Source of the DNA: Planoprotostelium fungivorum
Lineage: Eukaryota; Evosea; Variosea; Cavosteliida; Cavosteliaceae
Direction: 5' to 3'
Length of the DNA: 64,000 nucleotides
Assembly (NCBI GenBank): GCA_003024175.1
Contig: MDYQ01000395.1
Span: forward strand, 108,122-172,121
The position numbers were made by a program, and so were the translations under genes. The notes beneath the pieces are model-generated. The model worked only from the letters and a program-made list of their open reading frames with translations. It made no database searches and had not been told where the DNA came from. Below are positions 1-64,000 of this stretch, in pieces. Position 1 is the first letter of the stretch; every line of letters begins with the position of its first letter.

Positions 1-2336
1 TCGGAACTTCCGAGCAGTCTCTGTCCCTGACCAACAACGTCACCTCCCTCCCCTCCCTCTTTGTCACCGATCAGTTGGCTATCTACAACGTGCCAATCGT
101 AGTGGACAGCTGCAAGAACATCACCCTCAACTTCAATTTCACAGTGGACATCAATCGCATCTTACCTCTGGGATTCATTCTAATGCGGACGACCAATGCA
201 GTGAATCAATCTTCAGACCTGGTGACCATCCATCTACAACTACCTAATGACGTCATCTTGGAGGTGATTTATCGTTTTATTTTCCCCTCTTCGAATTGAA
301 TCGCTGATGCCATCCAGTTGAATAAGAAGAATAATTCTGCGTTGAATGGTACTGCCATCTACAACGCGATCGATCAGTTGCAATCTTTGTACCACAACTC
401 ATCTTACTTCACCATCTCCACCCCTCAATTCACCATGACGATCCGTGGTATCACGGTACGTATCCCATTTTCCCGCCAAAAAGCGTATCATTTCTGAGAA
501 TTTTCCAGGGCCAGAACACCACCAGCGTCGCCGTCAACGGTAGCGTTGCAGCTGTCACCATCTCCCAATCTTCTCTATCTCAACTGAATATCACCGATGC
601 GTACGTTACTCTCCTTTCTATAACTAAAAATCCGTTCGCTTCACTGGATGCTACCCCTGTGTGAGTCGGACCTATTCTTTCGTATTCTTCCGTAACCCAC
701 ATCAGCCACGGTGGTATCACGGCCGTGCAATTATCCGATTCTTCCGGGGCAGAAATTTCCGTGAAAGGTCTATATACACCCATCCAGATCGTCATCCCCC
801 TCCTCTCCACCCCCGACAACCAATCAGGTACCCCCATCATTTTCCCGCCAAAACTGAAACGTACCAGTCCTCGTCTGTTCGTATTGGAACGTAACCAACT
901 CCACTTGGAGCGGTGACGGTTGTACGGTTGGAGAAGTCAGCGCCACGTCATTGACTTGTCTGTGTGATCACTTGACCAATTTTACCGTAACGGCCGCACC
1001 CAGGAGATCGGAGAATTCGGGTTCACCCGTTTCCGGTTCACCCGGGGATCAGACTACAACGAGCCAAGGAAGCAAGACGGTGATCATCGCCGTGGTGGCC
1101 GCCGTGGGATCCATCTTGTTCATTTCGCGTGAGTGACGGAATTTTCGACGAAAAACTGACGAAATTTCAGTCATCGTGACGCTCATCGTCTTGTACATCC
1201 GATCGAGGAGGAACGCAAATTTCATCGACATCGAATTGACAGAGAATGCATCCACCAACGTGAGCGTCTACAACCTGCCACGTTCATTTCTCATTTTATC
1301 AGAATTTCGACGAGACAAACATCGTGTTGGACGAGACGTTGAGCATTGGAAGGAAGACGACAGTGTATCGAGCCACTTGGGGTGTCACTGTGACAGCCGT
1401 CAAGATGGAGGACACCGATGATGCCAATTTGTCACGTGAGATGGCCCGTCTCAAGGTATGGCATCATGTCGTGATCGTGATCGTGATCGTGTGATGATGA
1501 TGATCAGGAACTCCATCACGTTCGCATCGTTCAATATCTCGGTGTATTCAAGAGAGAAAATCGATTGAGTCTAGTACTCGAATTCATGCCCTGCGGAAAT
1601 CTCCACACGGTACGTATTCGAGTCGAAATTTCGCTGACTTTCACAGTGGACGAAGACGAAAATCATGTACCGCGGTGACATCCTCTCCATGTGAGATGAC
1701 GAAATTTCATTCGAATTTCTGACACGAGAAAAGTGGAAGACAAATTGCCGATGGCCTCGTCTATCTCCACGCCTCCGAATGGGTCCACGGTGCAATCTGT
1801 GCAGAGAACATCCTATTAGCCCTAGGGGTGAGTCACGTGACCTCCAAGCTTCCCTGACCTTCCCACAGAGCGGGGGGGACATGGTCGCAAAGATTTGTGA
1901 CTTTGGCGTGATGGTCAGGCCGGGAGAGAGAGCTGAAGCTGTGTGTGATGCCCCCGAAGTGAAAGACACAAAGAAGGTAGAGAAGGGCACGGATATCTTC
2001 TGCTTGGCCACGGTCATCACGTGAGTACAGGTCGCGTGACGTAGAATGACGTCATCACAGGGATATGACACAGCCCATCAAGTGTTCGACGTCTCTGAAG
2101 GTGAGAAGAGATGGAGAATTACACTGACTCGTTGTAGACGATCGAAGATGCAGAGAAGAGGACCTTACCGGATGACATCGATGAGCTGATGGACAGATGG
2201 TGATGGATGAGAAAAATAAGATTGTTGATTCTTTTACAGTTGGAGTACGAAGCCTAGAGATCGACCCACGGCAATGGAATTGTATCGCGCCCTCGAGGAA
2301 TACAAGCATGAGCCGATGTCCATGAGTGGCTTCTAA
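1..2336 (+). CDS. GPS-domain single-pass receptor with pseudokinase domain (5' partial)
   Basis: The gene runs in from the left edge and stops at TAA 2334-2336. An Asn-rich ectodomain with several N-x-S/T sites leads to a GPS-like motif at about 860-990: a W..GC element followed by CLCDHLTNF, as in GAIN/GPS proteins that self-cleave. A hydrophobic segment (about 1078-1200, split by an intron) is followed by basic RSRR. The cytoplasmic part (about 1300-2336, six or more introns) is a protein kinase fold. It has AVK for the ATP lysine, CDFG for magnesium and APE, but the catalytic loop reads HGAICAEN instead of HRDxxxxN, and the Gly loop is poor. The catalytic Asp is therefore missing; the loop resembles JAK JH2 pseudokinases. 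I infer a cell-surface receptor that signals by binding or scaffolding rather than catalysis. GPS is usually tied to seven-helix receptors, so a single helix plus kinase is odd. Function is inferred. Confidence 0.75.
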
Positions 2337-2684
2337 GGATGTCGATATAAACGAAACTCTTGTTCCTTCCAGAAGATGAAGCTCCTCGTGCTCAAACTTG
2401 ATTTTTATCACTTGATTGTCATCTGGTTTTCGTCTGAGAAATCAAGCCGTTGTGTCACTATCAGTCTAGACTCCCGCGGAGCATTCATCTGAAAAGACTG
2501 TATAAATATCATCAAAGGTGTACTGGTATCAGCAATTTGTGTTCGTAGGCGAGAATTACGAGGTATACGACAAGTCCAGGGAGCAAAAGTGCGAGCTGGT
2601 AACGATTTGTATGAATTTCGCAATAATGGTTAGGAGTGGTGGTTCTCTGTCCAATTGTAACATCCTACGCAAACCATCCATGCC

Positions 2685-62735: not shown

Positions 62736-63349
62736 GACACTCTTGTTCACCTCTAACATCCTACAGGGACGAGATGGATCTTCATGCAGGGATCCAGGAG
62801 AGTAGCGTAGCCCAGCTGGAGCCACTCCATCACAAGTCGTCCACCGAACGATCGGCCATCTCTGCTGATGCCTACACGCCGATTCTACCAGAGGAATTAT
62901 CCTCTTCGGACTCGGTAGCTCTCGCTCTGTTGGTAGGTAGACCTCCTTCTTCTGGTTGCTTCTGTCGTGTGTTCATTGGCTTCGTTGGTTGCTCTTGTTT
63001 GATTGTTGATTCTTTCAATAGCCGTAATGTATCAAGGATAACCAGTTGAACAAGATACTAAAATCCGATGAAATTCCCGTGAAATCTCATCGAATGATAA
63101 CCCGAAGCGGGACTATCACGACAAGAACACACTTTGCGAAATTTCGACAGAACAGATCGCTTACGGTCAAAAATAAAACGAATAAAACATGCATTGAACG
63201 AGATTACAGCTTCGAGATCAATCTGGCCAGAGAAAGACACCAAACCCACCCATCTGATCGAGCGCATCATCACCCAAACAAATGTTTAGAGCATCACGAC
63301 AAAGAACTCAAACATACGACGATCGACTGTACCGATTCTTTCTATTCGA
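62736..63349. other. Intergenic upstream of the kinase relic and 3' of the second GH72-X8 gene
   Basis: Open plus-strand frames 62774-63049 and 63046-63399 are uninformative. No repeat or RNA was recognised. Confidence 0.4.
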
Positions 63350-64000
63350 TTAGAGAGCAGCGGCGACGGCAGCAAAGACGAGACCAACCAGGGGGATGAT
63401 GAATCCAGCGCTTCCGGTGGTGTTGCCGTTCGTGTTCGTTCCAGTGGCTCCGGTGGTACCAGTAGCTCCATTGTTACCGGTAGTACCAGTAGCTCCATTG
63501 TTACCGGTGGTACCGGTGGCTCCATTGTTACCGGTGGTACCGGTAGCTCCGTTGCTGTTCGTGGTGGTGGTCGTTCCGGTAGCTCCGTTGTTACCGGTGT
63601 TGGTAGTGGCAACGATGGAGCCGGTGGCAGCTGGAGCGTTGGTGGGAGCGACGACTCCGTTGGCACAAGTGCTGGAGGGGGTCACCAACTGAGAAGACTT
63701 GAAGTTGGTGCAGGCGCCATCTCCCTGTCCTTGGTTTCCCTTCTGGTTCTGGTAGTACTGGTTGAGAACGTAAGCGGCGCGTTGTAGACTGTTGCAGCCA
63801 GAGTACAGTCCGTAGGTTCCGGTGGCAGGGTTGCTGGTGACGGCCTCGCAGTAAGAAGCGTTGAACGAGCAGACAAAGTTGATGTCCTCAGCGATGTAAC
63901 CCGAGTACGTCGCGTTGGCGTTAGCCAGAGTGGCATTCTGGAAGAAGGTCGTGCAGGCCAGCTGGCTGTTGAGGCAAGAGCAGAGAGCGTCGCTGGGGGT
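63350..64000 (-). CDS. GH72-family X8-domain protein, C-terminal part (partial)
   Basis: The gene enters from the right edge. The X8 domain runs from [19 protein letters not shown] to [20 protein letters not shown], close to the paralogue at 53.9-54.1 kb. A Gly/Thr/Asn/Ala-rich tail with 9-residue repeats follows, then a hydrophobic end ([18 protein letters not shown]), fitting a GPI anchor, stop at 63350. The catalytic domain lies outside the window. It is 9 kb from the first copy on the opposite strand. Confidence 0.85.
63449..63556 (-). repeat. 27-bp coding minisatellite
   Basis: Four imperfect units encode [13 protein letters not shown] nine-residue repeats in the wall-protein tail. Units differ at few positions (for example GGTACCAGT against GGTACCGGT), so the array is likely to vary in length between strains. 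Confidence 0.75.

Follow-up and report, generated by a model that had tools for sequence, protein, structure and literature searches.

A CTACAAC word concentrated in the short introns of Planoprotostelium fungivorum: a candidate recognition site for a DNA-binding protein

In the passages of the reports cited here and below, introners are described from diverse eukaryotes (PMC9860276), and introners and introner-like elements place many related sequences inside introns (PMC9860276; PMC4457414), some introner families possessing terminal inverted repeats (PMC9860276). Symmetry inside introns is also a property of the internally symmetrical stwintrons of Hypoxylaceae, for which proliferation without flanking duplications has been reported (PMC8469720). 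HIP1 (GCGATCGC) of cyanobacteria is one short word of very high genome-wide frequency and unsettled function (PMC4390886), and the YY1 sites in an intron of human UbC are intronic DNA-binding sites that may act on their host gene (PMC3680475). The present work deals with a word that shares a feature with each of these systems, namely, the heptamer CTACAAC (reverse complement GTTGTAG), found in a 64,000-nucleotide stretch of the Planoprotostelium fungivorum genome (contig MDYQ01000395.1, positions 108,122 to 172,121; hereafter, the window).

The word also departs from each of them. Unlike introners as described in the cited passages (PMC9860276), its copies share only ∼17–20 bp, occur at variable offsets and in both orientations, belong to no larger alignable unit and bring no increase in intron length, and several of the host introns share their position with motif-less introns of paralogs. 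The stwintrons carry terminal inverted repeats of 45–55 nt and their copies are strongly similar, whereas a palindrome of 14–22 bp or a single asymmetric half is found here (cf. PMC8469720). HIP1 is an 8-bp prokaryotic palindrome tied to methyltransferases (PMC4390886), in contrast to the longer, graded eukaryotic motif concentrated in introns, and the UbC case concerns an intron of the 5′ untranslated region (PMC3680475), whereas the present word shows no significant bias in intron rank and exceeds 12,000 copies. Bacteria offer well-known cases of genome words in excess, but a eukaryotic word of such copy number, densest in introns, free of direction and apparent even in the choice of synonymous codons, is unusual. 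A literature search by literal sequence, organism, introners and intronic words returned nothing on the CTACAAC word among the matches listed, which is not proof of its being unreported. Literal strings matched 486 papers; of the 15 listed, none contained the palindrome and no title was pertinent.

Abundance, form and distribution of the word

The initial annotation of the window, made from the letters alone, had put the heptamer at about 70 copies; 74 were counted, scattered over both strands, against a mean of 4.54 and a maximum of 10 in 100 dinucleotide shuffles. Measured against a second-order Markov model, CTACAAC showed the top excess among the ranked 7-mers of the window, and the 8- and 9-mers were headed by its extensions (38 copies of TCTACAACG, 58 of TCTACAAC, and 50 of CTACAACG). 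The outcome named in the initial annotation as refuting, a lack of excess over a dinucleotide model, did not occur, and the suggestion of a genome-wide word was borne out by a search of 36,859,091 bases (36.9 Mb) in 471 contigs, in which TCTACAACG occurred 6040 + 6042 = 12,082 times as compared with 296 + 266 = 562 for the reversed control. In an unselected sample of 234 kb, consisting of the window and 17 ten-kb stretches picked regardless of the word, 199 copies of the core were found where 17.1 were expected (11.6-fold), whereas its one-mismatch neighbors mostly reached at most ∼2–3 times expectation. Of these copies, 29 lay within a single Ser/Thr-rich coding repeat (L020:6169-9931) in which the codons TCA TCT ACA ACG AGC AGC (SSTTSS) spell the word; word counts are therefore inflated by this peptide-driven cluster. 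L020 was dropped from the position weight matrix (PWM) densities, the shuffle tests on coding sequence (CDS), the correlations per 10 kb, the per-gene intron-density statistics and the spacing list. Four further loci, L026–L029, were chosen for high word density; they were included in the profile, class, logo, length and per-gene counts and excluded from the PWM densities, the CDS synonymous-shuffle tests, the general-palindrome test and the correlations per 10 kb.

The refined profile spans ∼17–20 bp and reads yCCATCTACAACG followed by a weaker tail, so that the heptamer forms the core of CCATCTACAAC-NN-GYCA. Trained and scored on the same 274 kb, it gave 248 sites above 14 bits as compared with three in second-order simulated sequence. 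Such a graded profile, with a core and weaker flanks, is what a site for a DNA-binding protein would show. The palindromic form CTACAACGNTGTAG, perfect copies of which tally on both strands, yielded 1195 + 1160 strand hits genome-wide (control, 0 + 1). The asymmetric form carries the tail NN-GYCA instead; CTACAACNNGCCA occurred 1210 + 1226 times (control, 28 + 24) and CTACAACNNGTCA 849 + 851 times (control, 44 + 37). At least six of seven palindromic matches on the right side were present at 48 of 267 sample sites and at none of the shifted controls. An Rfam scan of the window gave nothing at the gathering score.

The distribution of the copies was evaluated on our own gene models, obtained with a simple self-trained hidden Markov model gene finder on the sample after a first, over-predicting run had been replaced. 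Introns called with confidence (n = 690) have a short median length of 45 nt. PWM matches above 18 bits numbered 62 in introns (1.14/kb), 14 in CDS (0.11/kb) and one in ∼40 kb of intergenic DNA (0.03/kb). The core was observed 92 times in introns against 2.4 expected, 68 times in CDS against 19.2 and nine times in intergenic DNA against 3.15, i.e., an excess of ∼38-, 3.5- and 2.9-fold, respectively, the null model for CDS being different from that for the other two. The word is thus present in introns and in several coding frames on both strands, as the initial annotation had stated, but the split is very unequal, introns far exceeding coding and coding exceeding intergenic DNA.

In the called CDS without L020, CTACAAC ranked first of 8,084 tested 7-mers over synonymous-codon shuffles (the 68 vs. 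19.2 above), and TCTACAAC ranked first of 24,187 tested 8-mers (46 vs. 8.9). With the Ser/Thr-rich exons also removed, the count was 68 against a shuffle mean of 20.5 (3.3-fold), and the excess was seen on both strands (sense, 56 vs. 18.7; antisense, 12 vs. 1.8). The synonymous-shuffle null is imperfect as purine-rich words also exceed the shuffles (2-fold), and part of the coding copies may lie within uncalled introns. The coding copies occupy several frames, and many of them read IYN in sense. An artefact of composition, codon usage or peptides (IYN, VYN, SSTTSS, HLQ) would account for these IYN copies and for clusters formed by Ser/Thr-rich coding repeats such as L020; as the main cause, however, it is refuted by the peak density in introns and the 3.3- to 3.5-fold excess over synonymous shuffles, and we consider it highly improbable. 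The earlier statement that the word is not just one peptide is right, with the qualification that some coding runs are driven by the SSTTSS peptide. In called CDS, GGCGGGAA/TTCCCGCC (22 vs. 3.0) came second among the 8-mers in strength over synonymous shuffles; we take it to resemble an E2F site, and its copies are perhaps promoter DNA miscalled as coding.

Orientation, splice junctions and pair spacing

Intronic copies were divided into three classes, i.e., A, in which GTTGTAG is itself the 3′ splice site; B, antisense and interior; and C, in sense. Including palindromic copies, the classes comprised 22, 62 and 58 members, respectively. With palindromes and copies at the 3′ splice site set aside, the intronic word was found 41 times in antisense and 38 times in sense, at many offsets; together with both CDS strands, this is the independence of orientation that a protein-binding site would display. 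The first exon base was A in 21 of the 22 introns ending in GTTGTAG, whereas A was seen there in 41% of the remaining TAG acceptors (n = 133) and in 36% of all others (n = 922); the motif therefore crosses the 3′ splice junction into the exon. Both orientations, the many offsets, the crossing of the splice junction and the excess over synonymous shuffles on both CDS strands point to a word that acts at the level of DNA, not of RNA or protein.

Fused branch point–3′ splice site motifs are known from introns of Giardia and Trichomonas. The form CTGAC-NN-GTTGTAG at the 3′ splice site resembles them, although only the minority class A uses it. An RNA-level splicing element, whether a hairpin or a branch point fused to the 3′ splice site (CTGACTCGTTGTAG), would be in keeping with the finding that GTTGTAG ends 22 of 945 called introns, many with TGAC or TGAT just upstream, and that 65% of 20 non-palindromic class A copies have A as the third base of TGRC, as compared with 32% of 41 non-palindromic class B copies (G in 59% of the latter). 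Use of the word as a 3′ splice site is real for a minority of copies, and the A in TGRC can serve as a branch point. Palindromic motif introns also fold better than their shuffles (mean z −1.44, n = 20). However, most copies are interior and in both orientations, with no fixed position on the sense strand, donor strength is the same in motif introns and others (4.36, n = 103, vs. 4.42, n = 587; p 0.55), CAG use and branch-point frequency are unchanged, and the folding of non-palindromic motif introns (mean z −0.13, n = 61) does not surpass that of introns lacking the motif (−0.32, n = 461). The word excess on both CDS strands likewise disfavors a splicing element, which we regard as quite unlikely to explain the word. 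The RNA hairpin as a general cause was rejected, unusual folding being limited to the palindromic motif introns. Inverted repeats anchored at the 5′ end of introns were at chance level up to 7 nt, with five observed against 3.0 at 8 or more nt and three against 0.6 at 9 or more nt, and half-against-half repeats of 9 or more nt numbered 11 against 4.2; owing to this slight excess of long inverted repeats, a minor symmetric component is possible.

Direct pairs of the word with the GCCA tail were found 97 times and never in the control. Among 21 allowed periods, 22 bp accounted for 56 and 23 bp for 17 of the 97 pairs, and after collapsing identical sequences for 51 and 16 of 89. As 22–23 bp corresponds to about two turns of DNA, such helical phasing is expected if bound proteins share one face, and it suggests, at the level of sequence, proteins sitting side by side on one DNA face. 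Inward inverted pairs with a gap of 2–31 bp were also in excess (201 vs. 39 in the control; outward pairs, 56 vs. 47). In 50 of the 201, the arms were of GCC plus TC type in 14 cases, GCC–GCC in one and TC–TC in one, and a GTCA arm was present in 89 of the 201 places (both-strand places counted by eye). Because unlike arms are commoner and the GTCA arm is frequent, our tentative reading of the inward pairs is that such introns carry a copy close to the donor and use another as their acceptor; the geometry might also be that of a dimer or of terminal repeats. Pairs with TGGC on both sides numbered two, a count that decides nothing, as few such pairs are expected when just a small fraction of the copies has an exact GCCA tail. 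The geometry was listed for 50 of the 201 inward places and for 72 direct pairs from 100 of 667, coding arrays having been removed by hand. A minisatellite at C8:38996-39104, with a 17-bp unit containing CTACAAC, holds six overlapping pairs in a row.

On the strength of the graded ∼20-bp profile, the orientation-free placement and the 22-bp phasing of direct pairs, we read the word, with a probability of about 0.5, as the recognition site of a putative sequence-specific DNA-binding protein with gene bodies as its docking places, the sites having accumulated in place and mostly in introns. A protein-binding site was also, as judged from sequence, the best supported of the three guesses made in the initial annotation, the others being an uptake-like signal and the trace of a short mobile element. 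The putative protein would dock on sites of ∼17–20 bp in gene bodies, and the palindromic form would represent two half-sites. Mutations that make or improve a site would be retained in introns, as they would do no harm there and would serve some function of gene bodies, which might be that of an intragenic enhancer, a chromatin mark or an architectural site. In exons, weak retention would proceed through synonymous codons, and in intergenic DNA sites would not be kept or would be avoided. At an intron end, the branch point and the 3′ splice site would be supplied by the TGAC and TAG of the site itself. A further proposal, possible but doubtful, is that the introns are docking sites for an abundant architectural or chromatin protein with a ∼20-bp site, 40-nt introns being the only room in a compact genome, so that DNA binding rather than splicing might drive part of intron evolution and even the choice of synonymous codons. 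If the binding-site reading is right, very short introns can be shaped by a DNA-level function, and the word would make gene-body regulation in Amoebozoa accessible to direct testing, with one motif and one pull-down.

Several observations weigh against the proposed binding site. It is unusual for a transcription-factor site of the ordinary kind to be nearly missing from intergenic DNA, and density varies over more than 100 kb, the first 116 kb of contig C1 having two of 100 listed plus-strand sites where 26.8 are expected. By eye, the word-rich and word-free gene models listed showed no clear functional split. Many regulatory introns are biased to the 5′ end of genes, and no such bias was detected here (relative rank of 80 motif vs. 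599 other introns, p 0.19; eight of 80 in the first fifth). Some of the 22-bp pairs and arrays may be tandem duplications, and the inward inverted pairs have only the tentative explanation given above. Introns are also denser in genes in which the word or its companions (described below) are frequent (6.81 per kb CDS vs. 5.38; 26 and 28 genes), as expected under a model of intron gain. The gene models, moreover, are our own; one gene, TOP3B, was compared with a public protein, from which its early introns differ.

A non-adaptive drive at the DNA level, in which biased repair, recombination or gene conversion keeps producing a Chi- or HIP1-like word that selection eliminates from constrained DNA, would suit the excess in introns, CDS and, weakly, intergenic DNA, the lack of orientation, the variation over more than 100 kb and the co-variation of other words. 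Nevertheless, a drive acting evenly would be expected to load intergenic DNA no less than introns, contrary to the strong matches at 0.03 vs. 1.14 per kb; the one-mismatch neighbors stay at only ∼2–3-fold against 11.6-fold for the core, and a drive by itself leaves the 22-bp phasing unexplained. It appears unlikely as the source of the word.

Intron positions, companion words and regional density

The remaining alternative is an introner or tiny mobile element, in which a ∼20-bp or palindromic unit with CTACAAC termini makes or invades introns and the present copies are decayed remains. The palindromic form and the excess of inward inverted pairs accord with it, as does the regional clustering of copies. 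The higher intron density of word-rich genes does so too; the density of non-word introns is similar (4.51 vs. 5.15), and a gain of word introns would yield the same pattern. On the other hand, motif introns are no longer than others (median 43, n = 91, vs. 44, n = 528; p 0.13), offsets vary, both orientations occur, and the very few strong matches in intergenic DNA speak against a mobile element. No donor travels with the word, GTGAG standing beside five of 83 antisense copies as compared with 96 of 1,568 background windows, and a donor-containing mobile unit was rejected on this basis. Outside tandem paralogs, copies do not align over most of the intron; the shared stretches are ∼23–30 nt and consist mostly of the motif or another palindrome. 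For a TIR transposon or MITE remnant the picture is mixed: inward pairs are in excess, but the interiors of the 50 listed are 3–31 bp long and variable in sequence, with no repeated interior seen; by-eye inspection of palindrome flanks revealed no consistent target-site duplication.

Intron positions were compared by spliced alignment of 13 kinase loci, i.e., one motif-rich gene and 12 relatives hand-picked from 162 matches. The word is carried by 13 of their 82 introns, and seven of these 13 lie at positions common to at least one paralog whose intron there is without the motif; the other six lie at unshared positions, one of them probably through a one-residue alignment shift. Position 138 (phase 0) is common to 11 loci and has the word in two of them, in different forms, and position 72 (phase 0) is common to eight loci and has it in two. 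New introns at positions absent in relatives were thus not the pattern in the kinase loci. Since motif-less introns of paralogs share these positions and intron length is equal, the word was gained or lost in place. The mobile-element trace proposed in the initial annotation is therefore disfavored by the lack of extra length, the motif-less introns at shared positions and the lack of a longer travelling unit; we consider the introner reading unlikely, and the case cautions against taking every word repeated in introns for an introner.

The word does not occur alone. GAAATTTC and TGACGTCA are also enriched in introns, and these two and GTACGTA/TACGTAC co-vary with CTACAAC per 10 kb across 22 pieces; they are palindromic words which presumably resemble bZIP and heat-shock-type sites. 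GAAATTTC is dense in the window, with 32 copies in 64 kb as compared with 18 in 170 kb of other unselected stretches. A general enrichment of palindromes in introns was rejected, as it fell to 0.90 of expectation once the top 12 words were removed. The 176 introns of seven word-poor loci are nearly devoid of companions (one TGACGTCA, no GAAATTTC and one GTACGTA), and motif-free genes are in excess, amounting to 15 of 43 genes with at least eight introns against 5.1 expected. Third-base composition was not significant as a correlate of motif introns.

On C1:1-144000, no palindrome was present among the matches listed and asymmetric copies were few, while sampled stretches there do have introns, indicating a sharp regional change. 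A second organism in the assembly is disfavored as the seven word-poor loci match the rest in donors and intron lengths and C1 has both kinds of region. The tetranucleotide correlation between word-poor and word-rich loci (L012, L016, L019 and L020 in neither group) was, however, 0.964, below that of 20 random splits (0.974–0.989). EF-1alpha on contig C134 is 100% identical to a public record of the amoebozoan Planoprotostelium fungivorum; this record, according to the cited passage, is mislabelled and really represents Protostelium aurantium (PMC10639083). A GH72-X8 protein with its sole named match in Basidiobolus (36%) had pointed to a fungus, an origin superseded by the EF-1alpha identity. 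The uptake-like signal suggested in the initial annotation found no support, intergenic copies being few and the first 116 kb of C1 sparse; we know of no natural transformation system for this amoeba.

Individual sites and gene models

The gene models were compared with a public protein at the TOP3B locus. The predicted protein matches human TOP3B (9cah) over residues 4–681 with an E-value of 2.9e-206, and the junction of the intron ending in GTTGTAG, the one junction inspected, is ungapped in the human alignment. For 2726 of 2814 nt, the public TOP3B protein P0124 (PROFUN_05618) is in exact agreement with the locus, and six of the 22 introns inferred from it carry the word. Our model likewise has six motif introns, five of which recur with identical boundaries among the confident introns, and the six listed sites inside the gene are intronic. 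At L024:3309-7301, the PROFUN_05618 model seems to join TOP3B to a downstream protein across an intron of 564 nt and to misread an early stretch. A 25-nt intron of TOP3B at L024:5806-5830 (gtgagatttcactgaaatctcgcag) is a near-pure hairpin and is backed by the public protein. In another locus, a model at L026:31-7874, which by eye resembles telomerase reverse transcriptase merged with its neighbors, has the word in 10 of 39 introns.

Within the window, the gene model at 19250..25104 (+) is among the most word-rich genes sampled, with the word in 12 of 34 introns. Palindromes were found at the following places. The perfect copy of CTACAACGTTGTAG at 14612..14625 is inside a called intron of a minus-strand gene; the 37-nt intron at 20141..20177 (+) reads gtgagcat-CTACAACGTTGTAG-atctgacccgtacag, with the palindrome between donor and branch point; the 46-nt intron at 21080..21125 (+) has its palindrome at 21095–21108; and a perfect copy at 31152..31165 is in called CDS of a minus-strand gene, possibly an uncalled intron. 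Near-palindromes are present in the 44-nt intron at 9090..9133 (+), as CTACAACGGTGTAG with consistent flanking reading frames, and in the 49-nt intron at 46653..46701 (−), as TCTACATCGTTGTAGA.

Class A is represented by the 39-nt intron at 22575..22613 (+) ending in ttgaccgGTTGTAG, the 37-nt intron at 31516..31552 (−) ending in ttgatcGTTGTAG and the 43-nt intron at 30104..30146 (−) ending in tcggctcGTTGTAG. The 39-nt intron at 5677..5715 (−) contains two direct copies 22 bp apart, the second of which is the 3′ splice site (ctgacgcGTTGTAG). Class B includes the 38-nt intron at 47694..47731 (−), which reads gtgaatgggctc-GTTGTAG-atg with an antisense interior copy, and the 46-nt intron at 22815..22860 (+) with an interior GTTGTAG; the 47-nt intron at 24398..24444 (+) starts with gtgaGTTGTAG and has two copies of TGACGTCA in addition. 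Class C includes the 36-nt intron at 44091..44126 (−), which reads gtgaccgt-CTACAAC-ctGCCA and holds the sense copy in its asymmetric form, the 43-nt intron at 1260..1302 (+), which reads gtgagcgt-CTACAAC-ctGCCA, and the 39-nt intron at 23617..23655 (+), which starts with gtgaagtccat-CTACAAC. A 213-bp tandem repeat of 5.5 copies was also observed at 28386–29560 of the window, within a coiled-coil-like coding region.

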